Positions 42,734 through 61,999 of a DNA stretch of 64,000 nucleotides are shown piece by piece; within the stretch, counting starts at the first letter, position 1; each line of letters starts with the position of its first letter. The notes beneath the pieces were generated by a model that did not search any database, had not been told where the DNA came from, and was given only the letters and a program-made list of their open reading frames with translations. The translations under genes and the position numbers were made by a program. Source of the DNA: Mesorhizobium sp. 65-26 (GTDB lineage: Bacteria > Pseudomonadota > Alphaproteobacteria > Rhizobiales > Rhizobiaceae); NCBI GenBank assembly GCA_001899205.1, contig MKVL01000012.1:161903-225902 (forward strand), read 5' to 3'.

Positions 42734-42765
42734 TTCCTACCCCTTAAAACGCGAAAATAGATCAG

Positions 42766-42787
42766 ATATACCACTCGCGAGGTATAT
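42766..42787. promoter_or_regulatory. Dyad ATATACC-N8-GGTATAT between luxR-type gene and ABC operon
   Basis: A perfect 7-bp inverted repeat with an 8-base spacer, in AT-rich sequence 33 bases upstream of the LuxR-type gene. LuxR/FixJ-type regulators bind such dyads, so it is a good operator candidate for this divergent promoter. Confidence 0.6.
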
Positions 42788-42851
42788 ACTAGCTGCCATT
42801 GGCTCTGGTAGCGTCTTGAAATCGATCGTCCTGTTGCTGGAGCCCGCAGCC

Positions 42852-45132: not shown

Positions 45133-45169
45133 CGCGAACGAGTCTCAGATCCGACGCAGACAAACTTGA

Positions 45170-45191
45170 CCGGCGGGCCTCCACCCGCCGG
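45170..45191 (+). promoter_or_regulatory. Intra-operon hairpin after the binding-protein gene (system 1)
   Basis: CCGGCGGG pairs with CCCGCCGG around CCTCCA, 38 bases after the potD-like stop and before the permease gene. A similar hairpin follows the binding-protein gene of system 2. In malE-malF-type operons such stems protect the upstream mRNA so that the binding protein is made in excess. Confidence 0.55.
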
Positions 45192-45209
45192 CACCGGGGC
45201 AATCCTTCG

Positions 45210-46073: not shown

Positions 46074-46885
46074 TGCGCGCCTTCGTCATCGCCGTCTTCG
46101 CCTTCCTCTATCTGCCGATCGCGCTGGTCGTGCTGTTCTCCTTCAACGCCGGCCACCATGCGAGCGAGTTCACCGGCTTTTCCGTGCAGTGGTACGGCAA
46201 GGCGCTGTCCAACCCGTTCCTGGTCGAGGCGCTGAAGAACAGCCTGTTCATCGCCACCACCAGCGCCCTGCTGGCGGCTGTGTTCGGTACAGCGGCGGCG
46301 CTTGGCCTGGCCCGCGTCGGCGTCAGGACCCGCGCAATCTTCGACGCGCTGCTGGGTGCCGCGATCGTCGTTCCCGGCGTCGTCATCGGCATCTCGACCC
46401 TGGTCGCCCTCGTCCAGCTGTTTGCGGTCGTCAATCCGTTCCTCGCCTCGATCTGGCCTGATGACCAGCCGCCGCGGCTGTCGCTGGGGTATGGCTCGAT
46501 CATCGCCGCGCACGGCCTGTTCTCGATGGCGCTGGTGACGATGATCGTCGGTACGCGGCTCGGCAGCCTCGACCGCAACCTGGTCGAGGCCTCGAGCGAT
46601 CTCTATGCCACGCCGCTGACGACCTTCCGTTCGATTGTCCTGCCGCAGATCATGCCGGCGGTTGTCGCAGGCTTCCTGCTCGCCTTCACATTTTCCTTCG
46701 ACGATTTCATCATCGCCTTCTTTGTCGCCGGCGCGCAGACGACACTGCCGATCTATGTCTTTGCGTCGATCCGGCGCGGCGTGACGCCGGAAATCAACGC
46801 CATCGCGACGATCGTGCTCGTCGCCTCCGTCCTGCTCGTGGTGCTTGCCCAATTGCAGCTGCGCCAGCGCAAGCCATCAAATTGA
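46073..46885 (+). CDS. ABC permease, PotC-like (system 1)
   Basis: A 270-residue permease partner. The EAA loop is VEASSDLYATPLTTFRSIVLPQIMPA, with FSFDDFIIAFFVAGAQTTLPIYVFASIRRGVTPEINAIATI following, which is highly typical of PotC/YdcV. The ATG begins within the potB-like stop (TGATG). The SDR gene follows ten bases later and is probably in the same operon. Confidence 0.94.
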   Translation: MRAFVIAVFAFLYLPIALVVLFSFNAGHHASEFTGFSVQWYGKALSNPFLVEALKNSLFIATTSALLAAVFGTAAALGLARVGVRTRAIFDALLGAAIVVPGVVIGISTLVALVQLFAVVNPFLASIWPDDQPPRLSLGYGSIIAAHGLFSMALVTMIVGTRLGSLDRNLVEASSDLYATPLTTFRSIVLPQIMPAVVAGFLLAFTFSFDDFIIAFFVAGAQTTLPIYVFASIRRGVTPEINAIATIVLVASVLLVVLAQLQLRQRKPSN

Positions 46886-46895
46886 AAGTCGCATC

Positions 46896-47657
46896 ATGAT
46901 CCTCAAGGACCGCATCGCCGTGGTGACAGGCGCAGGCTCCGGCATAGGCCGCGCCGGGGCCGTGATCATGGCAAGGGAAGGCGCCATGGTCGTCATCGCC
47001 GACAGGGATGAGGCCGCCGGCGAAGCGACGGCCGCGGACATCCGCGTTGCGGGTGGCCGGGCCGAAGCGGTCGCCACCGATGTTTCTGACGACGGGGCGG
47101 TCGAGCAACTCATCGCCGGCACGCTCGACAGGCATGCGCGCATCGACATCCTGCACAATCACGCCGGCATCCAGGTCGGCGGCACGCTCACGGAGGTCGA
47201 GACCAGCGGCATGGATGCCTCGTGGCGGGTCAATGTGCGCGCGCAGTTCCTGGCGGCCAGGCTGGTCATGCCGTCGATGATCGCGCAGGGCGGCGGCGTC
47301 ATCCTCAACACGGCCTCCAATTCGGGCGTGTTCTACGACCGCGAGATGATCGCCTATGCGACATCGAAACATGCCGTGGTGGCGATGACCCGGCAGATGT
47401 CGCTCGACTATGCCCGGCACAATGTCCGCGTCAACGCGCTCTGCCCGGGATGGGTCGACACGCCGTTCAATGAACCGTTCATCGCCCAGATGGGCGGCCG
47501 CGAAGCGATCGAGAACTATGTCCGCACCAAGATCCCGATGGGGCGCTGGGCCAGCGCCGAGGAGATCGCCGACGCGATCCTGTTCCTCGTCTCCGACCGG
47601 TCATCCTTCATGACCGGCCAGGCGCTGGTGATCGACGGAGGCGAAAGCATCGGCTGA
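46896..47657 (+). CDS. Short-chain dehydrogenase/reductase
   Basis: A 253-residue classical SDR. The nucleotide loop is VTGAGSGIGRAGA (about 11-23), the NHAGI block follows near 85, and the catalytic Tyr/Lys pair is in IAYATSKHAVVAMTR. The C-terminus ends ALVIDGGESIG. NAD preference is suggested by Asp in VVIADRDEAAG. It is the last gene of the first transporter operon, so it probably oxidises or reduces the transported compound or a derivative. Its stop codon forms the loop of a hairpin. Confidence 0.93.
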   Translation: MILKDRIAVVTGAGSGIGRAGAVIMAREGAMVVIADRDEAAGEATAADIRVAGGRAEAVATDVSDDGAVEQLIAGTLDRHARIDILHNHAGIQVGGTLTEVETSGMDASWRVNVRAQFLAARLVMPSMIAQGGGVILNTASNSGVFYDREMIAYATSKHAVVAMTRQMSLDYARHNVRVNALCPGWVDTPFNEPFIAQMGGREAIENYVRTKIPMGRWASAEEIADAILFLVSDRSSFMTGQALVIDGGESIG

Positions 47658-47671: not shown

Positions 47672-49180
47672 TCAGACGTGCTTGCGGCCGCCGGTTTCGC
47701 GGAACCAGCTGTCGGGATAGGGATACCACCACTCCTGGATCGCCGGCTTGTGGTCGATGATCACCATCTTCGACCGCCGGAAGGCGTCGAGACCCTGGCG
47801 GCCGAGCTCGCGCCCGAGGCCGGAAGCCTTCCAGCCGCCGAACGGCAGCGCGTCATTGTCGATCAGCGGATTGTTGACCCAGACCATGCCGGCTTCCAGC
47901 CGCTCGGCCGCTTCATGCGCCTCGGCGAGGTCAGTGCTGAACACCGACGCGCCGAGCCCGAAGGGGCTGTCGTTGGCGAGCCGGATGGCCTCGTCGAAAT
48001 CCTTGACGCGGCAGATCGCGGCTACCGGCCCGAAGCATTCCTCGCGCACGATCGCCATGTCCGGCGTCACGCCGGTCAGGATGGTCGGCTCGTAGAACCA
48101 GCCGGTGTCGTGCGCCGGCGGGATGCGTCCGCCGGTCACCGCCCGGGCGCCGGCGCGAACCGCCTCGTCGACCAACCGCATGACCTTGGCGCGTGCCGCC
48201 TCGCTGACCAGCGGCCCGATCTCGCTGCGGTCGAGCCCGTTGCCGATGCGCAGCGCGCGCGTCCTTTCGGCGAAGAGATCGACGAAGCGGTCGTGCACGG
48301 CATCGACGACGAAGAAGCGCTCGGCCGAGGTGCAGACCTGGCCAGTGAGGTGGAAGGCGGCGGTGACGGCGCCGGCCGCCGCCACCTCCAGCGGCGCGTG
48401 CGCGCTGATGATCATGGGGTCGCTGCCGCCGGCCTCGATGACGCAAGGCTTCATGCGCTCGGCGCAGGCGACGGCGACGGCCTTGCCGGCGACGACCGAG
48501 CCGGTGAAGGCAACCGCGTGCGTGCGCTCCGACGCGATCAGCGCCTGGGCGGTGGCCGCGCCACCCGGCAGGCAGGAAACCAGCCCCTCCGGCAGCGAGC
48601 GGAAGACCGTCATGTAGTCGAGCGTCGACAGCGTCGTCGCCTCGGCGGGCTTGATCACGCAGGCATTGCCGGCAGCCAATGAGGCCGCCACCGTCCAGCA
48701 CATCAGCAGGATCGGGAAATTGTAGGGCATGATATGGACGGAAACGCCATAGGGTTCGTAGCGCGCGTACTGGAACGACCCGGCCTGCGTCGTGCCGGCA
48801 ACCTTGCCTGCGTCGTCGCGCGCCATCTCGGCATAGTAGCGGAAGATCGGCGCGCAATTGGCGATCTCGCCAATCGCCTCGGGATAGGGCTTGCCCATCT
48901 CGCGCACCATCAGTTCGGCGCAGCGCGTGAAGTCGGCTGCCTCGATGGCGCTGGCCACCATGTGCAGATGTTTCGCGCGGCTCTTGGCGTCGAGCCGCTT
49001 CCAAGCCGATTGCGCCCTGGTGGCGGCGTCGAGCACGGCGTCGATCTCGGGCTCGCTCGCCACGCTGATGGCGCCCACCGCCTCCAGTGTCGCGGGGTCG
49101 ATGACCGATCGCGATGGCCCCGTCATCGGCCTGTAGGCCGGGTTCACGAACAGGGCAGGCCTATCGGGTGAAAACTCCAT
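47672..49180 (-). CDS. NAD(P)-dependent aldehyde dehydrogenase (PuuC/GabD-like)
   Basis: A 502-residue aldehyde dehydrogenase. Key blocks are MPYNFPILLMCW (cofactor), VAFTGSVVAGKAV (Rossmann), VIEAGGSDPMII (Glu) and the catalytic Cys in TGQVCTSAERFFVVD. It would oxidise an aminoaldehyde, or semialdehyde, made by the amine oxidase of this island. It is the last gene of the long minus-strand unit that begins with transporter system 2, 21 bases after the first cupin gene. The precise substrate is inferred from context. Confidence 0.93.
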   Translation of the reverse strand: MEFSPDRPALFVNPAYRPMTGPSRSVIDPATLEAVGAISVASEPEIDAVLDAATRAQSAWKRLDAKSRAKHLHMVASAIEAADFTRCAELMVREMGKPYPEAIGEIANCAPIFRYYAEMARDDAGKVAGTTQAGSFQYARYEPYGVSVHIMPYNFPILLMCWTVAASLAAGNACVIKPAEATTLSTLDYMTVFRSLPEGLVSCLPGGAATAQALIASERTHAVAFTGSVVAGKAVAVACAERMKPCVIEAGGSDPMIISAHAPLEVAAAGAVTAAFHLTGQVCTSAERFFVVDAVHDRFVDLFAERTRALRIGNGLDRSEIGPLVSEAARAKVMRLVDEAVRAGARAVTGGRIPPAHDTGWFYEPTILTGVTPDMAIVREECFGPVAAICRVKDFDEAIRLANDSPFGLGASVFSTDLAEAHEAAERLEAGMVWVNNPLIDNDALPFGGWKASGLGRELGRQGLDAFRRSKMVIIDHKPAIQEWWYPYPDSWFRETGGRKHV

Positions 49181-49201
49181 GGAAAACTCCTCCCGATCGC
49201 T

Positions 49202-49546
49202 TCAGCGGATCATGTAGACCTTCTTGATCGTCTCATGGACGGTGCATACGCCCTTCCAGTCCTGCGGGAAGAAGGCGGCCGTGTCGGGCTCGATCTCGAT
49301 CACCTCCCCGGACTCGTGCACGTAGGTGCAGCGGCCCTCCAGGAAGTGGCAGAACTCGTCGCGGGTGACGTGGCAGTGCCACTTGCCCGGCGTGCAGACC
49401 CACAGCCCGCATTCGGAACGGCCTTCCGGCCCCTTGTGCAGCAATTTGCCCGACGTGCGGGATTCGCCCTCGATCATGGTGGGAATGACGCCCCAGTCGA
49501 CCAGGTCGGTGATGGCGAGCGGCGATTTCATGACAGGTGTGGTCAT
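49202..49546 (-). CDS. Cupin-domain protein 1 (DUF861/EutQ-like)
   Basis: A 114-residue single-domain cupin. It shares a plan with the next two genes: SECGLWVCTPGKWHCHVTRDEFCHFLEGR, an acidic turn (GEVIEIEPDTAAFFP) and a terminal TVHETIKKVYMIR. DUF861 cupins are often found beside amine or betaine catabolic enzymes; the family's activity is mostly unproven. It lies between the second cupin and the aldehyde dehydrogenase with small gaps. Confidence 0.9.
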   Translation of the reverse strand: MTTPVMKSPLAITDLVDWGVIPTMIEGESRTSGKLLHKGPEGRSECGLWVCTPGKWHCHVTRDEFCHFLEGRCTYVHESGEVIEIEPDTAAFFPQDWKGVCTVHETIKKVYMIR

Positions 49547-49577
49547 CAGTCTTGTCCTTGCAGGTCGTTCTGGGGGC

Positions 49578-49919
49578 TCACCGGCACATGAAGGCCTTGG
49601 TCAGCGTTTCGGTTATCTCGCAGGTGCCGGTCCAGCCGGCGGGGAAGAACACCAGCGTCTGTGCCTCGACGGGGATGCGTTCGCCATTGTCCCTGATGTA
49701 GAGACCGCGCCCGGAGAGGAAATGGCAGAACTCGTCGACCTGGAAGGCGACGCGCCGGGTGCCGGGCGTGCAACGCCACAGGCCGCACTCGCTCGATCCA
49801 TCCTCGCGCTGGAAGAGCACCTTGCCCGAGGCGCGCGGCGCGCCCGCTATCGTGTTGGTGCCGGCGCCCCAGTCGTCGAGCTCGACGGAAGCGGCGTTCG
49901 GCCAGTGCGGTGTCGGCAT
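49578..49919 (-). CDS. Cupin-domain protein 2 (DUF861-like)
   Basis: A 113-residue cupin, the middle of three tandem paralogues: SECGLWRCTPGTRRVAFQVDEFCHFLSGRG, then TLVFFPAGWTGTCEITETL. It is the most divergent of the three at the N-terminus (VELDDWGAGTNTIAG). A dispersed palindrome separates it from cupin 3. Confidence 0.9.
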   Translation of the reverse strand: MPTPHWPNAASVELDDWGAGTNTIAGAPRASGKVLFQREDGSSECGLWRCTPGTRRVAFQVDEFCHFLSGRGLYIRDNGERIPVEAQTLVFFPAGWTGTCEITETLTKAFMCR

Positions 49920-49951
49920 GAATGAAGCTCCGTTCAGCAGATTCTTAGCTT

Positions 49952-50000
49952 GAGCGTGATCTTGTCCGAAAACCGGTTCCCACTTTTCGGGATCACGCCC
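49952..50000. repeat. Dispersed rhizobial palindrome (GCGTGATC element), copy 2
   Basis: GCGTGATC (49954-49961) pairs with GATCACGC (49991-49998), and inside CCGAAAA pairs with TTTTCGG. It belongs to the same family as the copies at 3953-4022 and 51641-51684. It touches the 3' end of the cupin 3 gene. Confidence 0.75.
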
Positions 50001-50351
50001 TCAGGCCAGCATGTAGACGTTGCGCATGGTCTCATGCACCGTGCATTCGCCCGTCCAGCCGGCGGGGAACATGACCACGGTTCCCGCGGAGACTTCTATC
50101 ACCTCGCCGACATCCGACCGATACGTCGCGCGCCCGGCGACGAAGTGGCAGAGCTCGTCGCGCGGGATGGAGAGCCGCCAGCGGCCGGGCGTGCAGACCC
50201 AGATGCCGGACTCGGGCTGGTTGTTCGGCCCCTTGTGCACCAGCCGGCCGGTCGAATGGGAGGCGCCTTCGAGCGCGTCGGGCTGGACGCCCCAGTCGAC
50301 GAGGTCGGTGCGGGTGGATGCCTGATGAAGATGCGGCGCTGACGAGCTCAC
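50001..50351 (-). CDS. Cupin-domain protein 3 (DUF861-like)
   Basis: A 116-residue cupin paralogue, closest to cupin 1: TRTDLVDWGVQPDALEG, then SGIWVCTPGRWRLSIPRDELCHFVAGR, with TVHETMRNVYML at the end. The start is a GTG at 50351 overlapping the glycosyltransferase stop (GTGA), so translation of the two is coupled. That tight coupling is the best clue that the cupin and glycosyltransferase share a substrate or step. Confidence 0.88.
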   Translation of the reverse strand: MSSSAPHLHQASTRTDLVDWGVQPDALEGASHSTGRLVHKGPNNQPESGIWVCTPGRWRLSIPRDELCHFVAGRATYRSDVGEVIEVSAGTVVMFPAGWTGECTVHETMRNVYMLA

Positions 50352-51622
50352 AGCAGCCTCTCCAGCAGACCGGCCGCCGTCTCTGGTCCGTTCTGTGACC
50401 GCATGCGTGCGGAGGTAGCCGCCAGCTTCGCCCGCATCGCCGGGTCGGTCAGGCATGTCTCGATCCTGGCGACCAGCTCGGCATCGGTCCAGTCGTAGCG
50501 CGGCATGCCGAAGCCGTGGCCCGTCTCCTCGACACGCCGGGCGTTGTCGTGGCCGTCCCAGACATAGGGCATGATGATCGCCGGCTTGCCGAAGTAGAGG
50601 CACTCGGTGAACGAGTTGTTGCCGCCATGGTGGATGACCGCGTCGACCTGCGGGATGACCGAGGGCTGCGGGAACCAGCTGTCGACGATGACATTGCCGG
50701 GCACGTCCGTGTACTGGTCCTTGTAGCCGCCGACGTTGACCAGCGCGCGATAGCGGGTGCCGGCAAGCGTGGCGATGATGCGCTTCAGGAGATCGACGTC
50801 GCCAGCCCCCAGGCTGCCGAAGGAGACATAGAGCAACGGCCCGTCATTGTTCTTGGCGAAGGTGGGGATCTCGTAGGGCTTCTCCTGCCGCACGCAACCC
50901 TCCAGATACTGGAAGCGGGCCGGGTCGAGCGGATGCCGGCGCTTGAATTTTGCGGCCTCCGGATAGAGCAGCAGGTTGAGATGGGGCGAGGCCTCGAAGA
51001 ATTGCCCGAGCGGGTAGGCTGCCTCGCCATTGGCCGTGAGGAAGGCGTTGAAGTCGTCGTGGATCGGCCTGATCACCGCGTTGAAATGGTCGCGGTAGCG
51101 CTGATGCCCGGCATGGTCGTCCTCGGCGCAGCCGGAAAGATGCGGCGGGATGTCCTCGTCCTCGATCTCGTTCTCCGAACAGGAGATGACGCGCACCCAG
51201 GGCTTGCCGTACTGCTTGATCGCCGGAAACAGGATGACGTTATCGACGCAGATGACGTCGGGCTTGATGGAAGCCAGCACACCGGGCAGGTCCTTCTGCG
51301 CCCATTTGGCGCTATCGACGATGGCGGTCCAGCAATCCTTCACATAGTTGTCGACCTGGTCGTAGGGCGACTTGCGGAAGTTGGGGATATGGCCGTTGAT
51401 GAAGTCTTCCCAGAACTTGGCCATCTGCTCCGGCGGCATGGGCTCGGAGAGGTTCACCGGGTGCGCCTCGAAGCCGTAACCCCTGTAGACATCGACGAAG
51501 CCGGGGTCCGACAGGAAAACCGCCTTGTGGCCGCGCGCCTCCACGGCCTGGGCGATGCCGACGGAATTGAGCGCCGGCCCGAAGGCTGCCTCGGGGAAAA
51601 ACGCGATCGTCTTCTGCGCCAT
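50348..51622 (-). CDS. GT1-type (UGT-like) glycosyltransferase A
   Basis: A 424-residue GT-B glycosyltransferase. The N-terminal acceptor domain begins TIAFFPEAAFGPALNSVGIAQAV. The donor-binding C-terminal half has LYVSFGSLGAGDVDLLKRI, VNVGGYKDQYTDVPGNV, DAVIHHGGNNSFTECLYFGKP and WDGHDNARRVEETGHG, equivalent to the UGT signature. ATG 51622 is chosen because GAGAGAGG precedes it. The gene is coupled to cupin 3. A close paralogue lies at 56789-58078. The acceptor is unknown; an imported amine or its derivative is suggested by context. Confidence 0.9.
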   Translation of the reverse strand: MAQKTIAFFPEAAFGPALNSVGIAQAVEARGHKAVFLSDPGFVDVYRGYGFEAHPVNLSEPMPPEQMAKFWEDFINGHIPNFRKSPYDQVDNYVKDCWTAIVDSAKWAQKDLPGVLASIKPDVICVDNVILFPAIKQYGKPWVRVISCSENEIEDEDIPPHLSGCAEDDHAGHQRYRDHFNAVIRPIHDDFNAFLTANGEAAYPLGQFFEASPHLNLLLYPEAAKFKRRHPLDPARFQYLEGCVRQEKPYEIPTFAKNNDGPLLYVSFGSLGAGDVDLLKRIIATLAGTRYRALVNVGGYKDQYTDVPGNVIVDSWFPQPSVIPQVDAVIHHGGNNSFTECLYFGKPAIIMPYVWDGHDNARRVEETGHGFGMPRYDWTDAELVARIETCLTDPAMRAKLAATSARMRSQNGPETAAGLLERLL

Positions 51623-51640
51623 GAAACCTCTCTCCACCAA

Positions 51641-51684
51641 AGCATGATCCCGAAAAGTTGCGGACTTTTCGGCCGAGATCATGC
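51641..51684. repeat. Dispersed rhizobial palindrome (GCATGATC element), copy 3
   Basis: GCATGATC (51642-51649) pairs with GATCATGC (51677-51684), with an inner CCGAAAAGT/ACTTTTCGG stem. It lies in the gap between the potA-like gene and glycosyltransferase A, so it may split or attenuate this long unit. Confidence 0.8.
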
Positions 51685-51734
51685 GTCAAACAAAAGCACT
51701 AGCGCGGGATGACCATTCCATTGCCCATCCCGCG

Positions 51735-52826
51735 CTAATCCGCGAAAATCCTGACGTCGGCAGCGTCCCAGCCGAGCTCCACCTGGTCGCCGACCGAAAC
51801 CGGCCGGCGGTCGGCGGCATCCGCCGTGACGCGCACCAGGAACGGCCTGTCGGACAAGGCCGTGCGCACATGCAGCTGCAGGTCCTGGCCCTGATAGGCG
51901 AGCGCTTCCACCTTGCCCGTGGTCCGATTCGCGGCCTGCGGCGGTGGGAACAACCGGATGCGCTCCGGCCGCACGGCGGCAACCCCGGCGCCGGTGGCAC
52001 CCGAGGTGCCGGCGCCGACTGGCGTGGCCGTCCCCCTGCCTTCCAGGCGGGTGCCATCGGCGGCGCGCACGCCGCCATTGTCGAGATGACCGGGGACAAA
52101 GTTCATCACGCCGATGAAGTCGGCGACGAAACGGTCGGCGGGATGTTCGTAGACCGTGTGCGGCGTGTCGCATTGCAGCAGCCTGCCGCCGCGCAACACC
52201 GCCATGCGGTCAGCCATGACCAGTGATTCCTCCTGGTCGTGGGTGACGATGACGAAGGTGATGCCGACTTCGTGCTGCAGGCGCTTCAGCTCGAGCTGCA
52301 TGGCGCCGCGCAGCTTCTTGTCGAGCGCGCCGAGCGGCTCGTCCAGCAGCAGCAGGCGCGGCCGCTTGACCAGGGCGCGCGCCAGCGCCACGCGCTGCTT
52401 CTGGCCGCCCGAGAGCTGCTCCGGCTTGCGGTCGGCGAAGGGCACGAGCTCCGTCGTCGCAAGGATGGAATCAACGCGGTCGCGGATTTCCCGTGCCGGC
52501 AGCCGTTCCATCTCCAGTCCGTAGGAGACATTGGCCCTGACGCTCATGTGCGGGAACAGCGCGTAGGACTGGAACATCAGGTTGACGGGCCGCTTGTTGG
52601 GCGGCGTGCGCGCAATGTCGCGCCCGTCGAGCATGATGCGGCCTTCGCTGGGCGTCTCGAAACCGGCCAGCATGCGCAGCAGCGTGGTCTTGCCGCATCC
52701 CGACGGACCGAGCAGGGCGAAGAACTCGTTCTCGCGGATGTCGAGGCTGACGCGGTCGACCGCCGTCACCCGGCCGAAATTCTTCGAAACGCCGTCGATG
52801 GAAAGCAAGGTGCGCGGCTCGTTCAT
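51735..52826 (-). CDS. ABC transporter ATP-binding protein, polyamine type (system 2)
   Basis: A 363-residue PotA-like ATPase. Walker A GPSGCGKTT is at residues 40-48, the signature is LSGGQKQRVALARALV, Walker B LLLDEPLGALD, and a TOBE domain ends it (VAAVRPERIRLFP). It overlaps the potC-like gene by four bases (ATGA). It differs clearly from the system 1 ATPase, so the two transporters are not a recent duplication. Confidence 0.93.
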   Translation of the reverse strand: MNEPRTLLSIDGVSKNFGRVTAVDRVSLDIRENEFFALLGPSGCGKTTLLRMLAGFETPSEGRIMLDGRDIARTPPNKRPVNLMFQSYALFPHMSVRANVSYGLEMERLPAREIRDRVDSILATTELVPFADRKPEQLSGGQKQRVALARALVKRPRLLLLDEPLGALDKKLRGAMQLELKRLQHEVGITFVIVTHDQEESLVMADRMAVLRGGRLLQCDTPHTVYEHPADRFVADFIGVMNFVPGHLDNGGVRAADGTRLEGRGTATPVGAGTSGATGAGVAAVRPERIRLFPPPQAANRTTGKVEALAYQGQDLQLHVRTALSDRPFLVRVTADAADRRPVSVGDQVELGWDAADVRIFAD

Positions 52827-53617
52827 TGACCGATGATCCCGCGGTTGAGCCGCTGCGAAAGCGTCAGCGCGGTGATCGAGACCGCCATGACGATGGTCGC
52901 CAGCGCGTTGATCTCCGGCGTGATGCCGAAGCGGATCATCGAATAGATCTGCATCGGCAGCGTGGTCGAGGCGCGGCCGGCGCCGGCGGTGAAGAAGGCG
53001 ATGATGAACTCGTCGACCGAAAGCGTGAAGGCGAGCAGCGCGCCGGCGATGACGGCCGGCAGGATGACCGGCAACGTCACGCGCCGGAAGGTGGTGAACG
53101 CGGAGGCGCCGAGGTCGGCCGACGCCTCGACGATCGACCAGTCGAAACTCTTCAGCCGGGCGCGCACGACCGAGCAGACGAAAGCGAGGTTGAAGACGAC
53201 GTGGGCGAGGATGATGGTGTGCAGGCCCATGGTGAGGTTGAGCATCGAGAAGAACGAGAGCAGGGCGATCGCCAGCACGATGTCGGGAATGATCATCGGC
53301 GCGAAGATCAGCGCCTCCAGGGCCTTGCCATGGCGGCGGCGCATCTCGACGCCGATCGCCAGCAGCGTGCCGAGCAGCGTCGCGGTGGCCGTCGAGACCA
53401 GCGCCACGATCAGCGTGTTGAGGCCGGCCGACAGGATCGCCGAATTACCGGCGAGCGAGACATACCATTTCAGCGAGAAGCCGGACCAGGCGGTCGGCAG
53501 GCCGCCCTTGTTGAACGACAGCGCCACCAGCACGGCGATCGGGATGTAGAGGAAGGCGAAGACGAGGCCGAGCACCAGCCGGAGCGTTCGCCTCGTGGCC
53601 AGCGAGCGCTCAGCCAT
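52823..53617 (-). CDS. ABC permease, PotC-like (system 2)
   Basis: A 264-residue permease. The EAA loop is VEASADLGASAFTTFRRVTLPVILPA, followed by LSVDEFIIAFFTAGAG and TTLPMQIYSMIRFGITPEINALATI. Six helices are visible. It overlaps the upstream potB-like gene by eight bases, so the permeases are translated together. Confidence 0.94.
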   Translation of the reverse strand: MAERSLATRRTLRLVLGLVFAFLYIPIAVLVALSFNKGGLPTAWSGFSLKWYVSLAGNSAILSAGLNTLIVALVSTATATLLGTLLAIGVEMRRRHGKALEALIFAPMIIPDIVLAIALLSFFSMLNLTMGLHTIILAHVVFNLAFVCSVVRARLKSFDWSIVEASADLGASAFTTFRRVTLPVILPAVIAGALLAFTLSVDEFIIAFFTAGAGRASTTLPMQIYSMIRFGITPEINALATIVMAVSITALTLSQRLNRGIIGQ

Positions 53618-54485
53618 CGGCGCCTCCCGTGGCTTCGGCGGCGCGGCCGGCGGCGCGGTCGGCGAACATGGCCTGCGCCATCAGCACGAGAAGCATGATG
53701 GCTATCAGCGCCATGGCGAGCGCGGCGCCGAACGGCCAGTCATTGGCGGTCAGGAACTGGTCGTAGACGAGGTTGCCGATCATCTGGAAACGTCCGCCGC
53801 CGAGCAGTGCGGGCGTGACGAAATTTCCGATCGACAGGACGAAGACGAAGACCGCGCCGGCCGCGATGCCCGGCACGGTGAGCGGCAGGATGACGCGGCG
53901 AAAGGTGGTGGCGGCGGAGGCGCCGAGGTCGCGCGAGGCCTCGGCCAGTTCGGGGTTGAGCCGCGACAGCGGCGCATAGCAGGCGAGGATGACGAAGGGC
54001 AGGTAATTGTAGACCAGGCCGGCGATCACCGCGCCCTCGGTGTAGAGCATCGACGGCGGCTCGCCGGTGTAGCCCAGCCAGCGCAGCAACTGCGTGACCA
54101 GTCCCTCGCGGTTGAGGAGCACGATCCAGGCATAGGTGCGGATCAGGTAGTTCGACCAGAAGGGCAGCACGGCGAAGAACAGGAAGACCGGCTGCAGGCG
54201 GCGCGGCGCCGCCGATATCGCGTAGGCCGCGGCATAGCCGATGACCACCGCTATGATCGTCGCGGTGCCGGCGATGCGCGCCGATTTCAGAAAGATGCCG
54301 GCATAGAGCGGGTCGACGACGAGCCCGAAATTCTCCAGCGTGAACGTATAGTCGATGCCGCCATAGATGCCGCGCCGGAAGAAGGCGAGCGCCAGCACCA
54401 GCGCGCACGGCACCACCATCAGCGCGGTCAGCCAGACCAGCGCCGGAGCCATCAGCAGGGAGGAGCGAAATCGGGTCTGGGACAA
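53610..54485 (-). CDS. ABC permease, PotB-like (system 2)
   Basis: A 291-residue permease. The EAA loop is AEASRDLGASAATTFRRVILPLTVPG. The N-terminus starts with a helix (SLLMAPALVWLTALMVVPCALVLAL) after a short cytoplasmic tail. It is 65 bases downstream of the binding-protein gene, with a strong hairpin in the gap. Confidence 0.94.
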   Translation of the reverse strand: MSQTRFRSSLLMAPALVWLTALMVVPCALVLALAFFRRGIYGGIDYTFTLENFGLVVDPLYAGIFLKSARIAGTATIIAVVIGYAAAYAISAAPRRLQPVFLFFAVLPFWSNYLIRTYAWIVLLNREGLVTQLLRWLGYTGEPPSMLYTEGAVIAGLVYNYLPFVILACYAPLSRLNPELAEASRDLGASAATTFRRVILPLTVPGIAAGAVFVFVLSIGNFVTPALLGGGRFQMIGNLVYDQFLTANDWPFGAALAMALIAIMLLVLMAQAMFADRAAGRAAEATGGADG

Positions 54486-54502
54486 TTTCAGGTACCGCTC
54501 AG

Positions 54503-54528
54503 GGCCGGCGACAGAAACATCGCCGGCC
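54503..54528 (-). promoter_or_regulatory. Intra-operon hairpin after the binding-protein gene (system 2)
   Basis: GGCCGGCGA pairs perfectly with TCGCCGGCC around an 8-base loop, in the 65-base gap after the potD-like stop. It mirrors the hairpin at 45170-45191 in system 1 and should stabilise or set apart the binding-protein mRNA. Confidence 0.6.
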
Positions 54529-54550
54529 GTGATGACTGGTTCAACGCCGC

Positions 54551-55615
54551 TTACTGCGCGGCCTTGATCTCGCTGACGATCTTCGCGTAATCGCGCTGGG
54601 CTTCGCCGACGTCACGCAATTGTTCGAACTTGACGAGATCGGCCACGGGCATTGCCATGTTGGGGAACTTGGCGAGAAAATCCGCCGGCAGGCTTTCCAT
54701 GGCCGGCTTGTTTGGCACCTTGTAGTCGATGTTCTGCGCCGCCCAGGCGTGGTTCTTGGCGTCGAGCATGAAGTTGATGAACTTGAAGGCGGCGTCCTTG
54801 TTCTGCGACGCCTTCATGACGACCATCGTGTCGACCCAGAGGTCGGAGCCTTCCTTCGGGATGACGTATTTGATCTCCGGCTTCTCGGCGATGCCGTAAT
54901 TGCACCAGCCGTCCCAGGCCTGCACCATCAGCGCCTCGCCGGACACCAGCTTCGAATAGAAGGTGGTGTCGTCATAGGCGAGCAGCGTCTTCTTGGCCGA
55001 GATCAGCAGGTCCTTCACCTCGGCGAGCTTTGCAGGGTCGGTCTCGTTGACGGAAAAGCCCTTGTCGAGCTGGCCTGCGGCGAGCAGCCAACGGTCGGTC
55101 GCCAGCATCGTCGTCTTGCCCTTGAGCTCGTCGGAGGGCGCCAGAAGATCGTTCCAGCTCGTCGGCGCCGCCTTCATGAGGTCGGAGCGGTAGCACAGGC
55201 CGGTGGTGCCCCAGGTGTAGGGGACGGAAAAGGCGTTGCCCACGTCGTGCGGAAGCCTGGTCGCTTCCGGGTAGAGATTGGCGAGGTTGGGGATCTTGGC
55301 GTGATCGATCGGCTCGGTCAGGCCGAGCTTGTTCAGTACCTCGGCGAAAGGCGAGGAAACGAAGACCACGTCATAGCCCTTGCCGCCGGAGGCGACGAGC
55401 TTGCCCATGATCTCCTCATTGGTGGCGTGCACCACCACTTCGCCGGCAACGCCCGTCTCGGCCTTGAAGGCCGTCATGGCGTCGGGGGCCATGTAGCCAT
55501 CCCAGTTGGAAATGACGAGATCGGCGGCGGCGGCTGGCAGCGACAGGGCCAGTGCAAGGCCGAGCGCGATCGAAGACGTTCTCAGCGAACGATACCGCAA
55601 AGCGGTGGCGGTCAT
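54551..55615 (-). CDS. Extracellular solute-binding protein, PotD/PotF-like (system 2)
   Basis: A 354-residue periplasmic protein with a Sec signal (SSIALGLALALSLPAAAA, cleavage near residue 29). The mature domain has DLVISNWDGYMAPDAMTAFKAETG, then VDTMVVMKASQNKDAAFKFINFMLDAKNHA, typical of PotD/PotF. ATG 55615 is used, with GGGAG upstream; a frame to 55906 has no family-like N-terminus. It is the first gene of the minus-strand unit (transporter, glycosyltransferase A, cupins, aldehyde dehydrogenase) and is divergent from the GntR gene. Confidence 0.93.
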   Translation of the reverse strand: MTATALRYRSLRTSSIALGLALALSLPAAAADLVISNWDGYMAPDAMTAFKAETGVAGEVVVHATNEEIMGKLVASGGKGYDVVFVSSPFAEVLNKLGLTEPIDHAKIPNLANLYPEATRLPHDVGNAFSVPYTWGTTGLCYRSDLMKAAPTSWNDLLAPSDELKGKTTMLATDRWLLAAGQLDKGFSVNETDPAKLAEVKDLLISAKKTLLAYDDTTFYSKLVSGEALMVQAWDGWCNYGIAEKPEIKYVIPKEGSDLWVDTMVVMKASQNKDAAFKFINFMLDAKNHAWAAQNIDYKVPNKPAMESLPADFLAKFPNMAMPVADLVKFEQLRDVGEAQRDYAKIVSEIKAAQ

Positions 55616-55727
55616 GGCGGACTCCCATTCCGGTTGATCGTCGAAATCTTGTGCGGACCGGGGCTCGCGGCTCTGCCGCGGTTCCGATCCCTGTTCCCTC
55701 GGTCTTTTTGTCGCCGATTGCACTGAC

Positions 55728-55755
55728 AGTACTATTGCAGAAAAAAGTACGTCAA
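55728..55755 (-). promoter_or_regulatory. Possible promoter and operator of transporter system 2
   Basis: On the minus strand TTGACG (55750-55755) looks like a -35 element, with TAGTACT about 16 bases on as a weak -10. The element AGTAC occurs on both sides of an AT-rich core (55728-55750). It lies 113 bases before the potD-like start, in the region shared with the GntR gene. Confidence 0.3.
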
Positions 55756-55829
55756 TCCATAATTTGGCGGGTGGCTGAGGAATCTCGCCGGTTGCGTCCG
55801 CAACGGCGATCGGTCTAACCATCACGGAC

Positions 55830-56789
55830 ATGCCCGTCCCGAGAAGTGTCATGCAAGCGGCAGCCAGGCGACCTCGCACCAACCATCTCGATCTCGCGCA
55901 GCGCATCCTGGATGTGGCGCGGCAGCGCGGCTTCGAGCCCGGTACTCATTTGCCGGAACAGCAGATCGCCTCCTTGTGCAGCGTTTCGCGGACCCCGGTC
56001 CGGGCGGCCTTGCGGCTGCTGGCCGAACAGGGCGTGGTGCAGTGGGAGGCCGCCACCGGCTATCGTCTCGCCGTCGACCTCGCCGCCCAGGCGGCCGTGA
56101 CCACCGAATTGCCCGCCGCCGAAGAGGATGAGCTCGCCGAAGCGATCCTGCGCGACCGCTCGGCGCGGCGGCTGGACCAGACCGTGACCGCCAGCGGGTT
56201 GATGCGGCGGTACAATGCGGATCGTAAGACGGTACTAAAAGCACTCACGAGACTGACTGACGAGAATCTGCTCGACCGCGCGCCCGGCCAGTCCTGGCTG
56301 TTTCGCCGGGCGCCGGACGATCCGGAAGCGCAGGGCGAGAGCTACGAGTTTCGCCTTTTGCTGGAGCCGGCCGCATTGCTCGCGCCGGGCTTCCGCCTCG
56401 ACGGCGCCCGCGCGGCGGCGCTGCGGCAGGGCATGGAGGCGCTGGCGGCGTTGCCCGACCCCGCGTTCGACACCAGGGAATTCCAGCGGCTCGACATCGA
56501 GTTCCACGGCATGATCGCCGACGGCTCGGCCAATCGTTTCATCACCGATGCGCTCTCCGACCACTTGCGGCTGCGCCGGCTGCCCGGCATCTATGCGGGC
56601 ATCAACGTCTTCAGGCTGAAGCAGTCCCTGCGCGAGCATCTGACCATTCTCGACCATCTGGAAAGCCGGCAGTACGAGGTGGCGGCCGATCTGTTGCGTG
56701 TGCATCTGCGGCTGTCGCGCAGCCAGCGGCCGCAAGCGGCCAGCCGGGGCGCGCCGGCCCTGTTCGGCATGATCAGCCGGCCGGATTGA
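55830..56789 (+). CDS. GntR/FadR-family regulator with a second winged-helix segment
   Basis: A 319-residue regulator. The N-terminal GntR winged helix is LPEQQIASLCSVSRTPVRAALRLLAEQGVV (about 44-73). A second winged-helix-like segment follows (about 120-165, ASGLMRRYNADRKTVLKALTRLTDENLL), and a C-terminal FCD-type ligand domain (LDIEFHGMIADGSANRFITDAL) ends it. It probably controls its own operon (with glycosyltransferase B, the ligase and the oxidase) and the divergent transporter unit. Its stop overlaps the glycosyltransferase B start. Confidence 0.9.
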   Translation: MPVPRSVMQAAARRPRTNHLDLAQRILDVARQRGFEPGTHLPEQQIASLCSVSRTPVRAALRLLAEQGVVQWEAATGYRLAVDLAAQAAVTTELPAAEEDELAEAILRDRSARRLDQTVTASGLMRRYNADRKTVLKALTRLTDENLLDRAPGQSWLFRRAPDDPEAQGESYEFRLLLEPAALLAPGFRLDGARAAALRQGMEALAALPDPAFDTREFQRLDIEFHGMIADGSANRFITDALSDHLRLRRLPGIYAGINVFRLKQSLREHLTILDHLESRQYEVAADLLRVHLRLSRSQRPQAASRGAPALFGMISRPD

Positions 56790-58078
56790 TGAACCGCATG
56801 CGCAAGCCGAACCCGACGATCGCGTTGTTTCCCGAAGCGAGTTTCGGCGCGGCGCTGAACTGCGTCGGCATCGCGCAGGCGCTGCGCGCCCGTGGCGCGC
56901 GGCCGGTGTTCATCTGCCATGCCGGCTTCACCGGCGTGTTCGCCGATTACGGCTTTCAGGAATACCAACTGCCGACCGAGGACCGGTTGAGCGACAGCGA
57001 ACGGCAGAGCTACTGGCAGGCTTTCGTGCGTCGGCACCTGCCGCATTTTCGGCTGAGCCCGGCCGACCAGCTCGAGACCTATGTCGCGCCGACCTGGGAA
57101 GCGATCGTCGATACGGCCGTCGACGCCGAGGCGCCGCTCCGGCAATTGCTGGCGCGGCTGAAACCCGACGCCGTGGTGCTCGACAACGTCATCATGTTCC
57201 CGGCCATCGCCGCGTCCGGCTGTCCGTGGGTGCGCGTCGTTTCCTGCGCCGAGACCGAGCTTCCGGACGCCAATGTGCCGCCCTATCTGTCCGGCCTTGC
57301 CACCGGCGACGCCGCCCGCGCCGCCTTCGAACGGCGCTATCTCGCGGCGGTTGCCCCCGCGCATGAAAGGTTCAACCGGCTGCGCGCCGAGGCGGGACTG
57401 GCGCCGCTGCCCAAGGGGTCGTTCCTGGAGGCCTCGCCGGATCTCAACCTGCTGCTCACGCCCTCGATCGTGCGGCGCGAGCGAACCGAGCCGCTCGATC
57501 CGGATCGCTTCGTCTATCTCGAAGGCTGCGTGCGTTCGGAAGGGCCGTTCGAGGTGCCGGTCTTCCCGCGCGACGGCGGCCCCCTGGTCTATCTCAGCTT
57601 CGGCAGCCTCGGCGCCATGGATGTCGGACTGATCGAACGCATGCTGGCCGTGTTCGACAGGCTGCCGGCGCGCTTCATAGTCAATGTCGGCGGCCTGCGT
57701 GACGCCTATCGCGCGGTGCCGGACAATGTCTATCTCGACGCCTGGTTTCCGCAGCCTTCGGTGGTGGCGAAGTCCGATCTGTTCATCCACCATGGCGGCA
57801 ACAACAGTTTTTGCGAGGCGCTGCGCTTCGGCGTGCCGTCGCTGATCATGCCCTACTGCTGGGACGGGCACGACAATGCGCGCCGCGCCGAGGAGACCGG
57901 CGTCGGCAACCATCTCAGCCGCGACGGCTGGACAGAGGGAGTACTGGAAAGAGCCATTGTCGGCCTGCTGGCCGACGATGCCATGCGCGCCCGCCTCAGG
58001 GAGAATGCAGCCCATATGGCGCTGAAACCCGGAACGGACGTGGCCGCGCAAGCGATACTCTCCCTGATACGGACATGA
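56789..58078 (+). CDS. GT1-type (UGT-like) glycosyltransferase B
   Basis: A 429-residue paralogue of the glycosyltransferase at 50348-51622. It shares FPEASFGAALNCVGIAQAL, FVYLEGCVRSEGP, YLSFGSLGAMDVGLIERML, HHGGNNSFCEALRFG and WDGHDNARRAEETG. The ATG begins at the last base of the GntR stop, and its own stop overlaps the ligase ATG (ATGA), so it is locked into one operon with a regulator, a gamma-glutamyl-amine ligase and an amine oxidase. Its acceptor is unknown. Confidence 0.9.
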   Translation: MNRMRKPNPTIALFPEASFGAALNCVGIAQALRARGARPVFICHAGFTGVFADYGFQEYQLPTEDRLSDSERQSYWQAFVRRHLPHFRLSPADQLETYVAPTWEAIVDTAVDAEAPLRQLLARLKPDAVVLDNVIMFPAIAASGCPWVRVVSCAETELPDANVPPYLSGLATGDAARAAFERRYLAAVAPAHERFNRLRAEAGLAPLPKGSFLEASPDLNLLLTPSIVRRERTEPLDPDRFVYLEGCVRSEGPFEVPVFPRDGGPLVYLSFGSLGAMDVGLIERMLAVFDRLPARFIVNVGGLRDAYRAVPDNVYLDAWFPQPSVVAKSDLFIHHGGNNSFCEALRFGVPSLIMPYCWDGHDNARRAEETGVGNHLSRDGWTEGVLERAIVGLLADDAMRARLRENAAHMALKPGTDVAAQAILSLIRT

Positions 58079-59460
58079 ACGAAATGCCTGACAAGATCAC
58101 GAATACCGCGACGACCTCCAGCGACCCGGAGGCCTGGCTGGCCCGGCACGGCATCAACGAGGTCGAATGCCTGGTGCCCGACATGAACGGCGTGCTGCGC
58201 GGCAAGACGCTGCCGACAGCCAAATTCCTCAAGGCGCTGGAAGACCGCGCGCTCTATCTGCCGAGCAGCGCCTTCCTGGTGAGCATCGATGGCCGCTATT
58301 CCGGCTCGGTCGACGAGGGCTTTGCCTATTCGGATCCGGACATGCGCATGGTGCCCGACGTCTCGACGCTTTGCCTGGCGCCCGGTGCCGGCGCTGGCAA
58401 GGCCTATGTCTTCGCCGATGCCTTCCACATGGACGGCCGGCCATGGACGGCCTCGCCGCGCCATGTGCTGCGCGCCGTGCTCGATCTTTATCGCCGGCGC
58501 GGCTGGCGCGCCGTGGTGGCGCCCGAACTCGAGTTCTACCTTACGGCGCCCAATCCCGATCCGGACCGGCCGCTGACCGCGCCGGTCGGCGCCAATGGCC
58601 GCGCCGAGGCCGTGCAGCATCCCTACGACATGGCCGCGCTCGAGGAATTCGAACCGGTGATCCGGCGCGTCTACGACTATGCCGCCGCCGCGGGCCTGCC
58701 GCTCGACACGCTGATCCACGAATCGGGGACGGCGCAGCTGGAGATCAACTTCCTGCATGGCGACGCCTTGCCGCTGGCCGACAAGGTGCTTCTGTTCAAG
58801 CGGCTGACGCGTCAGGCCGCGCAGCAATGCGGCATGCACGCCACCTTCATGGCCAAGCCGATCGCAGAGCAGGCCGGGAGCTCGATGCATCTGCACATGT
58901 CGGTCGTCGACGAGGCCGGCAACACGCTGTTTGCCGGCAAGGACGATGCCGATACCGAGATGTTCGGCCACTTCATTGGCGGGTTGCAGAAATACGTCCC
59001 CGAGATCATGCCGCTGTTCGCGCCGAACGTGAATTCGTTCCGGCGCATCCGGCCGAACCACAGCGCGCCGGCCAATATCGAATGGTCGCACGACAACCGC
59101 TCCTGCGGCCTTCGTGTGCCGGCTGGCGGGCGTGCCGCGCGGCGGGTGGAAAACCGGCTGCCGGGCGCGGATTGCAATCCCTATCTGGCGATCGCCGGTT
59201 CGCTGCTCGCCGGCTATCTCGGCGTCGAGGAGAAGCTGGCGCGGTCGGCCGAAGCTTCGGGCAATGCCTACAAGGTCAAGAGCACTCTGCCGAAGACCAT
59301 GGAAGAAGCGCTCGACCGGTTCGCGGCCTGCGACCCGGTGCGAAACCTGCTCGGCGAGGATTTCTTCCAGACCTATCTGCGCGTCAAGAGCGTGGAGCTC
59401 GACCTGTTCCAGGGCGTGGTCACGTCCTGGGAACGCGACCATCTGCTGCTCAAGGTGTGA
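58075..59460 (+). CDS. Glutamine synthetase-like gamma-glutamyl-amine ligase (PuuA-like)
   Basis: A 461-residue enzyme of the type I/III glutamine synthetase superfamily, in the branch that makes gamma-glutamyl amides. Glutamate- and ATP-site blocks are VAPELEFYL, GTAQLEINFLHGDAL, SSMHLHMSV, NSFRRIRPNHSAP and RVENRLPGADCNPYLAIAGSLLAG. The adenylylation Tyr region of housekeeping GlnA is absent. It would ligate glutamate to an amine in the first catabolic step. It overlaps glycosyltransferase B by four bases and is followed after two bases by the oxidase. Confidence 0.92.
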   Translation: MNEMPDKITNTATTSSDPEAWLARHGINEVECLVPDMNGVLRGKTLPTAKFLKALEDRALYLPSSAFLVSIDGRYSGSVDEGFAYSDPDMRMVPDVSTLCLAPGAGAGKAYVFADAFHMDGRPWTASPRHVLRAVLDLYRRRGWRAVVAPELEFYLTAPNPDPDRPLTAPVGANGRAEAVQHPYDMAALEEFEPVIRRVYDYAAAAGLPLDTLIHESGTAQLEINFLHGDALPLADKVLLFKRLTRQAAQQCGMHATFMAKPIAEQAGSSMHLHMSVVDEAGNTLFAGKDDADTEMFGHFIGGLQKYVPEIMPLFAPNVNSFRRIRPNHSAPANIEWSHDNRSCGLRVPAGGRAARRVENRLPGADCNPYLAIAGSLLAGYLGVEEKLARSAEASGNAYKVKSTLPKTMEEALDRFAACDPVRNLLGEDFFQTYLRVKSVELDLFQGVVTSWERDHLLLKV

Positions 59461-59462
59461 CC

Positions 59463-60758
59463 ATGGCTTCGACGGGCTTCAATTCCGGCCTCGACATCGG
59501 CAAGTCCTACTATGTCGCGACCGCGGCTCCGGCGGTCGTTCATCCGGCCTTGCAGGGCGAGGTCGAGGCCGATCTCGTGGTTGTCGGTGGCGGCTGCACC
59601 GGCCTTTCCGCCGCGCTCCACGCCGCCGAGCGCGGGCTGAAGGTCGTGCTGCTCGAAGGCGGCAGGATCGGCTGGGGCGCTTCGGGCCGCAATGGCGGCC
59701 AGATGATCCCGGGCCTGCGCAAGGGCGCCAAGGGATTGGTCAGGAGCTTTGGGCCCGAACGCGCCAAGGCGCTGTTCGATCTGGCCTTCGAGGCGCGCGG
59801 CCTGGTGCTCGACATCATCGAGCGCCATGCCATTGATTGCGATCTCCGGCTGACCGGTCATCTGGTCGGCGCGGTCAGCGCCTCGGATCTGCGGGATCTC
59901 GAGGAGGAGGCGGAATGCCTCGCCAAGGTGATGAATTTCCCGCATGTCGAGATGCTTTCTGCTGGGCAGGCGCGCGGCATCGTCAATTCGCCCTATCAAG
60001 GCGCGATGCTGGAAAAGCTCGGCGGCCACATGCATCCGCTGAACTACACACTGGGCCTGGCCCGCGCGGCCGTAGCCGCGGGCGTGACCATCCACGAAAA
60101 CTCGGTCGCGACCCGCCTCGATCGCGAGCCCTCGATCCGCGTCTCGACGGCGAAAGGCTCGGTGCGGGCACGCCACGCCGTTCTTGCCGGCGACGCGCTT
60201 CTCAAGGGGCTGGAGCCGCGCGTCAACAGCCGCATCATGCCGGTCGGCAACTATATCATCGCCACGGAGCCGCTCGCCGACGCCGCGGAGGTGATCCCCG
60301 GCAATGTCGCCGTCTCCGACACGCGTTTCGTGGTCAACTATTTCAGGCTGTCAGCGGACGGGCGCATGCTGTTCGGCGGCGGCGAGCGCTACACGCCGTC
60401 GCCGCCGGCCGACATCGCCGGTTTCGTGCGGCCGCATATGGAGAACACCTTTCCGCAACTGCGCGGCCGCCGCATCGAACATGCCTGGGGCGGGCTGGTG
60501 TCGGTCACGACGTCCCGGCTGCCGCATGTCGGTCACTATGGCGAGGTCTATTTCGCGCATGGCTATTCCGGCAAGGGCGTCATCCTGTCGACCCTGTCGG
60601 GCAAGCTGCTCGCCGAGGCGATTACCGGCGATGCCGCGCGGCTCGACCTGTTCTCGACGCTGAGCCCGCTGCCATTCCCGGGCGGCACGGCACTGCGCGG
60701 CCCGCTCTATGTGCTGGGCATGCTGTGGTACGCGATGCGCGACCGCCTCAAGCATTGA
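59463..60758 (+). CDS. FAD-dependent amine oxidase (PuuB/DAO-family)
   Basis: A 431-residue flavoprotein oxidase. The FAD loop is LVVVGGGCTGLSAALHAAERG (about 36-56), then GRIGWGASGRNGGQ, a motif typical of gamma-glutamylputrescine oxidase. The C-terminal YFAHGYSGKGVILSTLSGKLLAEAI is also typical. It would oxidise the gamma-glutamyl-amine to an aldehyde, ammonia and peroxide, feeding the aldehyde dehydrogenase. It is the last gene of the GntR operon. Confidence 0.92.
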   Translation: MASTGFNSGLDIGKSYYVATAAPAVVHPALQGEVEADLVVVGGGCTGLSAALHAAERGLKVVLLEGGRIGWGASGRNGGQMIPGLRKGAKGLVRSFGPERAKALFDLAFEARGLVLDIIERHAIDCDLRLTGHLVGAVSASDLRDLEEEAECLAKVMNFPHVEMLSAGQARGIVNSPYQGAMLEKLGGHMHPLNYTLGLARAAVAAGVTIHENSVATRLDREPSIRVSTAKGSVRARHAVLAGDALLKGLEPRVNSRIMPVGNYIIATEPLADAAEVIPGNVAVSDTRFVVNYFRLSADGRMLFGGGERYTPSPPADIAGFVRPHMENTFPQLRGRRIEHAWGGLVSVTTSRLPHVGHYGEVYFAHGYSGKGVILSTLSGKLLAEAITGDAARLDLFSTLSPLPFPGGTALRGPLYVLGMLWYAMRDRLKH

Positions 60759-61800: not shown

Positions 61801-61887
61801 TCCGCCCCTCGCGACTCCAATCAGGGAGGCTGCGCACCATGCGTCCGAAAGCCGCTTCCCGGGCTTCTGCGTGATGCGCCAACGCCG

Positions 61888-61912
61888 TTGCCGGGATTGA
61901 CTCGTCCGGCAA
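61888..61912. promoter_or_regulatory. Inverted repeat TTGCCGG-N11-CCGGCAA
   Basis: A 7-bp dyad in the IclR-CoA-transferase divergent region, nearer the IclR start. It could be a secondary operator or a loop-forming partner of the palindrome at 61947-61961. Confidence 0.4.
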
Positions 61913-61946
61913 AGCCAGCCTAGAAAGTATCGCATAGGAAACAAAA

Positions 61947-61961: not shown

Positions 61962-61999
61962 AAATGCCAATCTGGCAAATCGCCCCGGAGGCCTGTTCG

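Follow-up and report, generated by a model that had tools for sequence, protein, structure and literature searches.

One of the described systems closest to the locus studied here is the Puu gamma-glutamyl-putrescine pathway of amine catabolism (PuuA/B/C/D). The locus is an island of genes at positions 47672 to 60758 of a 64,000-nucleotide stretch of DNA from Mesorhizobium sp. 65-26 (contig MKVL01000012.1), and this whole stretch is called the window below. With Puu it shares amine import, a FAD oxidase, an aldehyde dehydrogenase (ALDH), in Mesorhizobium a glutamine-synthetase-like ligase, and possibly the use of a temporary tag on the amino group. Unlike Puu, it has two glycosyltransferases (GTs) and Cupin_3 proteins, which replace or accompany the ligase, and its ligase and ALDH score far under the curated cut-offs of the Puu-type models. 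Other systems resemble parts of the island. The PotABCD polyamine importers have the same component types as the importer of the window, including a PotD-like binding protein. The cell-wall sugar recycling route of AmgK and MurU, in which AmgK phosphorylates free amino sugars at C1, resembles a kinase that would be expected to make a sugar-1-phosphate from a free sugar, although this kinase scores below the AmgK cut-off and its gene sits between ALDH and cupin genes. The solved structures closest to the GTs are UGT203A2 and UGT202A2 of the mite Tetranychus urticae and those of macrolide transferases, enzymes which conjugate toxic compounds, while the gene setting of the window family is that of amine catabolism.

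A cassette that recurs as one unit

The initial annotation placed the GTs and cupins within the island, and our results support this: together with the ALDH and the ABC importer they are its most conserved part and not passengers. Many bacteria carry the cassette as a recurrent unit, and a related set occurs in two salt-loving archaea. A scan of titled genomes with the GT alignment gave at least 568 relatives, and the best 80 were analysed as loci, so that the counts are biased towards close relatives of transferase B (its closest titled relatives are 28 Mesorhizobium loci with 86-91% identity). The lineage groups were taken from record titles, and related strains are not independent. The features of the window are as follows.

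47672..49180, minus strand: ALDH of a distinct subfamily, core gene (PF00171, 486 bits; best NCBIfam model BADH, 378 bits, cut-off 668.6)
49202..49546, minus strand: cupin 3, Cupin_3/EutQ-like, core gene and best-conserved cupin (PF05899, 62.6 bits; 73/80 loci)
49578..49919, minus strand: cupin 2, accessory paralogue (PF05899, 51.2 bits; 23/80 loci)
50001..50351, minus strand: cupin 1, whose GTG start overlaps the stop of transferase A (PF05899, 53.4 bits; 71/80 loci)
50348..51622, minus strand: transferase A, core gene (groups with the haloarchaeal copies)
51735..52826, minus strand: ATPase of ABC importer 1 (PF00005 and TOBE_2)
52823..53617, minus strand: permease 2 of importer 1 (PF00528)
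53610..54485, minus strand: permease 1 of importer 1 (PF00528)
54551..55615, minus strand: PotD-like binding protein of importer 1 (PF13416; PotD alignment)
55830..56789, plus strand: GntR/FCD regulator (PF00392 and PF07729; 80/80 loci)
56789..58078, plus strand: transferase B, paralogue of A with 50% identity (PF06722, 68.5 bits)
58075..59460, plus strand: glutamine-synthetase-like ligase, Mesorhizobium neighbour (NCBIfam GlnA 224 bits and GGputSyn 192 bits, both below cut-off)
59463..60758, plus strand: FAD oxidase of the DAO family, Mesorhizobium neighbour (PF01266, 247 bits)
42648..47657, plus strand: second PotABCD-type importer and an SDR dehydrogenase (domain scan)
61030-63651: IclR regulator and CoA-transferase gene, downstream of ligase and oxidase (domain scan)

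All gene types, strands and the gene order named in the initial annotation were recovered (ALDH, three Cupin_3 proteins, two GT1-type transferases, PotABCD-type importer, GntR/FCD regulator, ligase and DAO oxidase). The minus-strand unit runs from the binding protein through two permeases, the ATPase, transferase A and cupins 1-3 to the ALDH, and the plus-strand unit from the regulator through transferase B and the ligase to the oxidase. The likely starts lie at 51622 for transferase A, 56789 (ATG) for transferase B, 55615 for the binding protein and 50351 (GTG) for cupin 1, and an open reading frame (ORF) of 863 aa at 58167-60758 was resolved into the ligase and oxidase genes at 58075-59460 and 59463-60758. 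The stop/start overlaps are real, with 1-4 bases at the junctions of regulator and transferase B (TGATG), transferase B and ligase (ATGA), and transferase A and cupin 1 (GTGA), and there are further overlaps in importer 1 at the ATPase/permease and permease/permease junctions. A chance arrangement is excluded because the identical order recurs in other bacterial orders.

The 80 loci belong to Mesorhizobium, other Hyphomicrobiales, Rhodobacterales, Pseudomonas, Halomonadaceae and one betaproteobacterial metagenome-assembled genome (MAG). Transferase B, like the regulator, was present in all 80, transferase A in 78, the importer binding protein in 77 and the ALDH in 73. Every miss of transferase A, cupin 3 or the ALDH lies where the contig ends before that place (for cupin 3, 7/7). 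The true exceptions are L089, with no importer between transferase A and the regulator, L113, with about 8 kb of other genes in the place of the importer and a contig that begins inside transferase A, and L079 and L092, which are without a cupin 1 match.

The co-inheritance was also seen in two further samples. In 151 genomes of the family (cut-offs E ≤1e-50 for the GT, 1e-180 for the ALDH and 1e-20 for cupin 3), the ALDH occurred in exactly those 16 genomes that hold the GT, and cupin 3 in these 16 plus G095. The latter was rejected as a case of a cupin without a transferase and read as a remnant: near a contig end it has cupin 1, a partial cupin 3 and a C-terminal piece of the ALDH. Among 72,556 plasmid records (cut-offs 1e-50 for the GT and 1e-150 for the ALDH) the GT was found in 15 and the ALDH subfamily in 11, all of them among the 15. 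In Pararhizobium gei the cassette, accompanied by its dehydrogenase and a second ALDH, stands isolated among unrelated genes on a plasmid of 103 kb. Four records have the GT but not this ALDH: one from Pseudomonas frederiksbergensis, where the copy is fragmentary, and three from actinobacteria. Two of the actinobacterial records, L037 and L039, have a PotABCD-type importer close to the GT, with 49-55% identity to that of the window. L039 also has an ALDH there, of only 34% identity, and in the third, L035, neither importer nor ALDH was seen near the GT. The P. frederiksbergensis plasmid (L034, 12001-13001) carries a broken GT relative amid type VI secretion genes, with no cassette.

Two of the 11 ALDH-bearing plasmid records are from the haloarchaea Natrialba magadii and Natronorubrum aibiense, in which GT, cupin and ALDH are adjacent, with one GT each. 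In the tree the haloarchaeal GTs join transferase A (support 0.965) and transferase B forms a clade of its own (1.0), which makes the split between A and B an old one. The single-copy GT of L137 was unplaced (0.549). This locus (genome G158) has a cassette with one glycosyltransferase and no match to the regulator or to transferase B; its neighbours, labelled by eye, are a regulator-like ORF and an ORF resembling a flavin amine oxidase.

A putative route of transient glycosylation

For this cassette we favour, tentatively and somewhat short of calling it probable, a transient glycosylation of an imported amine, followed by oxidation via an aldehyde to an acid, release of the free sugar and its re-activation. 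The ABC importer would bring the amine into the cell, where transferases A and B, with a nucleotide sugar as donor, would attach a hexose or N-acetylhexosamine to it, most plausibly at its nitrogen. The resulting secondary amine, now tagged, would be oxidised at carbon by the lineage's own enzyme, a DAO oxidase or a saccharopine-dehydrogenase-like protein, and the dedicated ALDH would convert the aldehyde to the acid. The free sugar would be released from the labile N-glycoside, perhaps with the help of the cupins, and the sugar-1-phosphate would be remade by the AmgK-like kinase, or by glucokinase and phosphoglucomutase. In Mesorhizobium the cassette lies between the importer/SDR block and the ligase/oxidase pair and may feed into both.

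The proposal draws on five lines of evidence: the conserved and co-inherited core (16/151 genomes, 11/11 plasmid records and 80 loci), the sugar-activation genes that join the cassette, the differing amine-to-aldehyde candidates that adjoin it by lineage, the lack of a glycosidase model, and the loss of the usual GT1 catalytic His with an invariant Glu nearby. Saccharopine-dehydrogenase-like and DAO enzymes act on secondary amines, and an N-glycosylated amine would be a secondary amine, so that this step order would be possible. Domain scans gave no glycosidase model among the cassette proteins of the window, which fits a labile glycoside. A more specific version seems unlikely to us at present, namely a sugar carrier cycle in which the transferase pair, dependent on a nucleotide sugar, activates an amine as N-glycoside and oxidative C-N cleavage leaves a 1-aminosugar. 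Hydrolysis would then free the sugar for recycling to sugar-1-phosphate. Such a cycle would be, with the same low likelihood, a glycosyl counterpart of gamma-glutamylation for nitrogen release, common to Proteobacteria and haloarchaea.

Both transferases carry EryCIII-like_C/UDPGT-type C-terminal domains of GT1, and the GT-B fold was shown for A only. Their best NCBIfam model is MGT (TIGR01426), with 109 and 121 bits against a cut-off of 260. In GT1 enzymes the catalytic His lies in the N-terminal GH motif and a D-Q pair contacts the donor sugar. Alignments of rows with at least 50% identity and at least 75% coverage (A, n=88; B, n=87) have, in place of the FGH His of the mite and macrolide enzymes, Pro in 88/88 rows of A, and Ala in 85/87 and Ser in 2/87 rows of B. 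The D-Q pair is D-G in 88/88 and 87/87 rows, respectively, whereas three actinobacterial relatives keep D-Q. A nucleophilic amine acceptor would need a catalytic base less. The likeness to mite and macrolide enzymes, together with MGT as best model (albeit below its cut-off), would also suit detoxification, in which an ordinary amine pathway would be accompanied by transferases that conjugate a toxic amine or aldehyde by-product. We consider this rather improbable, since a detoxifier would be expected to be less tightly co-inherited with a single ALDH subfamily and a single cupin, the core genes include no exporter, and the usual catalytic His is lost.

The binding protein was compared with PotD, whose acidic polyamine contacts are Glu36, Glu171 and Asp257 (PMC4096761), with residue numbers assigned from motifs in this analysis. 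Glu36 is replaced by Gly and Glu171 seemingly by Trp, at a place where the alignment is weak, while Asp257 is kept. A polyamine-type site was rejected, as it is conserved only in part. The protein has several conserved tryptophans, and these, with the one retained acid, could suit a sugar-amine ligand. The amine might be imported in an already glycosylated form, such as a plant or algal conjugate, and the two transferases might work backwards, so that the sugar ends up on a nucleotide and the amine becomes available for oxidation; the missing glycosidase model and the loss of the usual base in both transferases agree with this. We regard it as unlikely, because reverse transfer gives a nucleotide sugar directly and a free-sugar kinase would not be needed, and we know of no net reverse GT1 flux in catabolism.

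The ALDH reached 241.7 bits with the PuuC-type model PRK09847, missing the cut-off of 850. A metal-dependent cupin of the HxH type was rejected: the window's cupin 3 has an HxH that is not conserved, and both haloarchaeal copies are without it.

The candidates for the amine-to-aldehyde step differ between lineages. One DAO type stands beside the cassette in 26/30 Mesorhizobium loci, and another in 9/14 loci of Pseudomonas, 4/17 of Rhodobacterales and 1/3 of Halomonadaceae; eight of the nine DAO-bearing Pseudomonas loci have a further Cupin_3 protein. The other Hyphomicrobiales carry a saccharopine-dehydrogenase-like protein (12/15) and a second ALDH (13/15). DAO and class-III aminotransferase genes were found near the haloarchaeal cassettes. 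Four whole genomes of 4.3 to 6.8 Mb each contained 16 to 38 DAO matches, a background of about 0.07-0.11 per 20 kb. The Pseudomonas count is higher than chance would give, although the strains concerned are interrelated. In Rhizobium sp. ACO-34A (L157, 18414-25194) genes for an ALDH, an N-methylproline demethylase and an aminotransferase come after the cassette, which hint at N-methylated amine substrates.

An AmgK-like kinase gene lies between the ALDH and cupin 3 in 29/80 loci: 13/14 of Pseudomonas, 3/3 of Halomonadaceae, 9/17 of Rhodobacterales, 4/15 of the other Hyphomicrobiales, 0/30 of Mesorhizobium (4 of them cut) and 0/1 for the betaproteobacterial MAG. Three of these operon kinases scored 245, 223 and 225 bits with the AmgK model NF045698 (cut-off 500), and there is one solved relative, 3csv. 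The motif RD[FY]H.DN, picked in this analysis, occurs in 32/33 loci and 33/34 rows (the L077 query being one row) and is absent in L101, and a second motif, DFQDA, in 29/34 rows. The genome of the window has one AmgK relative, located elsewhere, beside an ORF that by eye resembles a sugar nucleotidyltransferase. Beside the haloarchaeal ALDH there are ROK glucokinase-like and phosphoglucomutase/GlmM-like genes (families tested for Natrialba). The presence of two unrelated sugar-1-phosphate routes beside the same transferase suggests that a free sugar is released and then re-activated. The same genes, and the several salt-loving hosts (Halomonadaceae, haloarchaea and marine Rhodobacterales), would be expected if the cassette made a glycosylated compatible solute or signal, through amine import, oxidation to the acid and glycosylation with sugar activated by the kinases. 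This appears quite improbable, as the importer, the GntR/FCD regulator and the adjoining oxidases look catabolic, and many hosts are soil bacteria, judging from names and sources.

The ligase/oxidase pair of Mesorhizobium

The initial annotation matched the ligase, oxidase and ALDH to the Puu putrescine route in type and order of reaction. A Puu-like ligase and oxidase as the core of the island is not supported by the data. The ligase scored 191.6 bits with the PuuA model NF045547 (cut-off 650). The oxidase belongs to the DAO family at 247 bits, and no PuuB model was among the 25/36 families listed. No PuuD-type gamma-glutamyl hydrolase was found among the window proteins scanned. Outside Mesorhizobium, 1/50 titled loci has the ligase at 40% identity or more (L113, 42% identical). 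Orthology to Puu was rejected on the curated scores and the neighbourhood data.

In 146 Mesorhizobium genomes (cut-offs 1e-100 for the GT and 1e-230 for the ligase), the ligase was found in 123 and the GT in 79, and 46 of the 123 ligase genomes had no GT at 1e-100. Ligase and GT thus vary independently, a pattern which the initial annotation would have taken as a sign of incidental linkage, but within the genus their linkage is not incidental: in 77/78 genomes bearing transferase B the ligase lies -1 to 121 nt downstream of it, in 42 with a 1-nt overlap of the matched ends. In the exception, G672, the ligase after transferase B is 64% identical, and in the 79th genome, G616, the contig ends in transferase B. 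In G038, from another genus, a 65% identical ligase adjoins the ALDH.

Five of the 46 GT-less ligase genomes were inspected. G073, G219 and G544 retain ligase and oxidase next to scars of the cassette (pieces of the GntR gene, the ALDH end in two, transferase B without its middle). In G610 importer 2 and the SDR are followed at about 0.4 kb by ligase and oxidase, the cassette being absent from this place, and G658 had no cassette remnant at the search cut-off. The ligase/oxidase pair is separable from the cassette, and since each occurs without the other, the cassette in Mesorhizobium is a separable block within or beside an importer-SDR-ligase-oxidase set. An ordinary gamma-glutamyl pathway of the Puu type with incidental neighbours could explain the ligase that directly follows transferase B, but it is largely refuted by the neighbourhood data and the missed PuuA and PuuC scores, and we give it very little credence. 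What stands of the initial annotation is the tie between glycosylation and amine oxidation, which is still the best reading, without a Puu-like core.

The breaks of transferase B in the Mesorhizobium scar loci L144, L149 and L152 lie near residues 39-40 and 333-342. In some Mesorhizobium loci the IclR and CoA-transferase genes are kept with the ligase/oxidase pair.

Weighing the proposed route

Several observations weigh against transient glycosylation. The kinase was not seen in 51/80 loci (7 cut before that place), among them all 30 of Mesorhizobium. In the haloarchaea the ROK gene is encoded on the other strand, convergent and not in one operon with the cassette, and the kinase/mutase linkage comes from two genera that are related to each other. 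Since DAO and ALDH genes are widespread, some neighbours may be due to chance, and some loci have no amine-to-aldehyde partner within the stretch fetched. With D-G for D-Q, a donor other than UDP-glucose is possible, and the transferase activity is putative. A simple polyamine substrate is unlikely because the binding protein loses Glu36 and seemingly Glu171, and it is uncertain why a protecting group would be needed. In Mesorhizobium, ligase and transferases together would be two redundant tags. The distribution is patchy, with the GT in 16/151 genomes of the family, 79/146 of the genus and 8/398 of the phylum (four candidates scored per genome). The analysis shows the gene set with its conservation and co-inheritance, its independence of ligase and oxidase, the GT1 fold of A, the altered active-site residues and the linked genes of sugar-kinase type, while substrate, sugar, step order, direction of transfer and the part played by the cupins are inferred.

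The component families are known, and by the curated tests run the combination is not Puu. Full-text searches directed at the cassette, which covered few subscription journals, gave no description of it that we recognised, so that an earlier report is possible. If the tagging cycle is true, it would be a second kind of chemical tag in bacterial amine catabolism, and it would assign roles to three protein groups that now have domain names only: a GT1 family without the His, a Cupin_3 family and an ALDH subfamily. Since soil and marine bacteria carry the cassette, on plasmids as well as on chromosomes, it may mark the use of an overlooked nitrogen compound. The GT family may also bear on the origin of the mite UGTs, which has been proposed to be bacterial.

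Ruegeria and Shimia, too, have a second PotABCD-type importer with an SDR close to the cassette (L032, 14430-19224; L102; L151). In the window a palindromic intergenic element lies at 49966-49990 between cupins 1 and 2, with one mismatch to its own complement, and an element similar by eye is located near 51630-51680, upstream of transferase A. Both look like rhizobial intergenic repeats.

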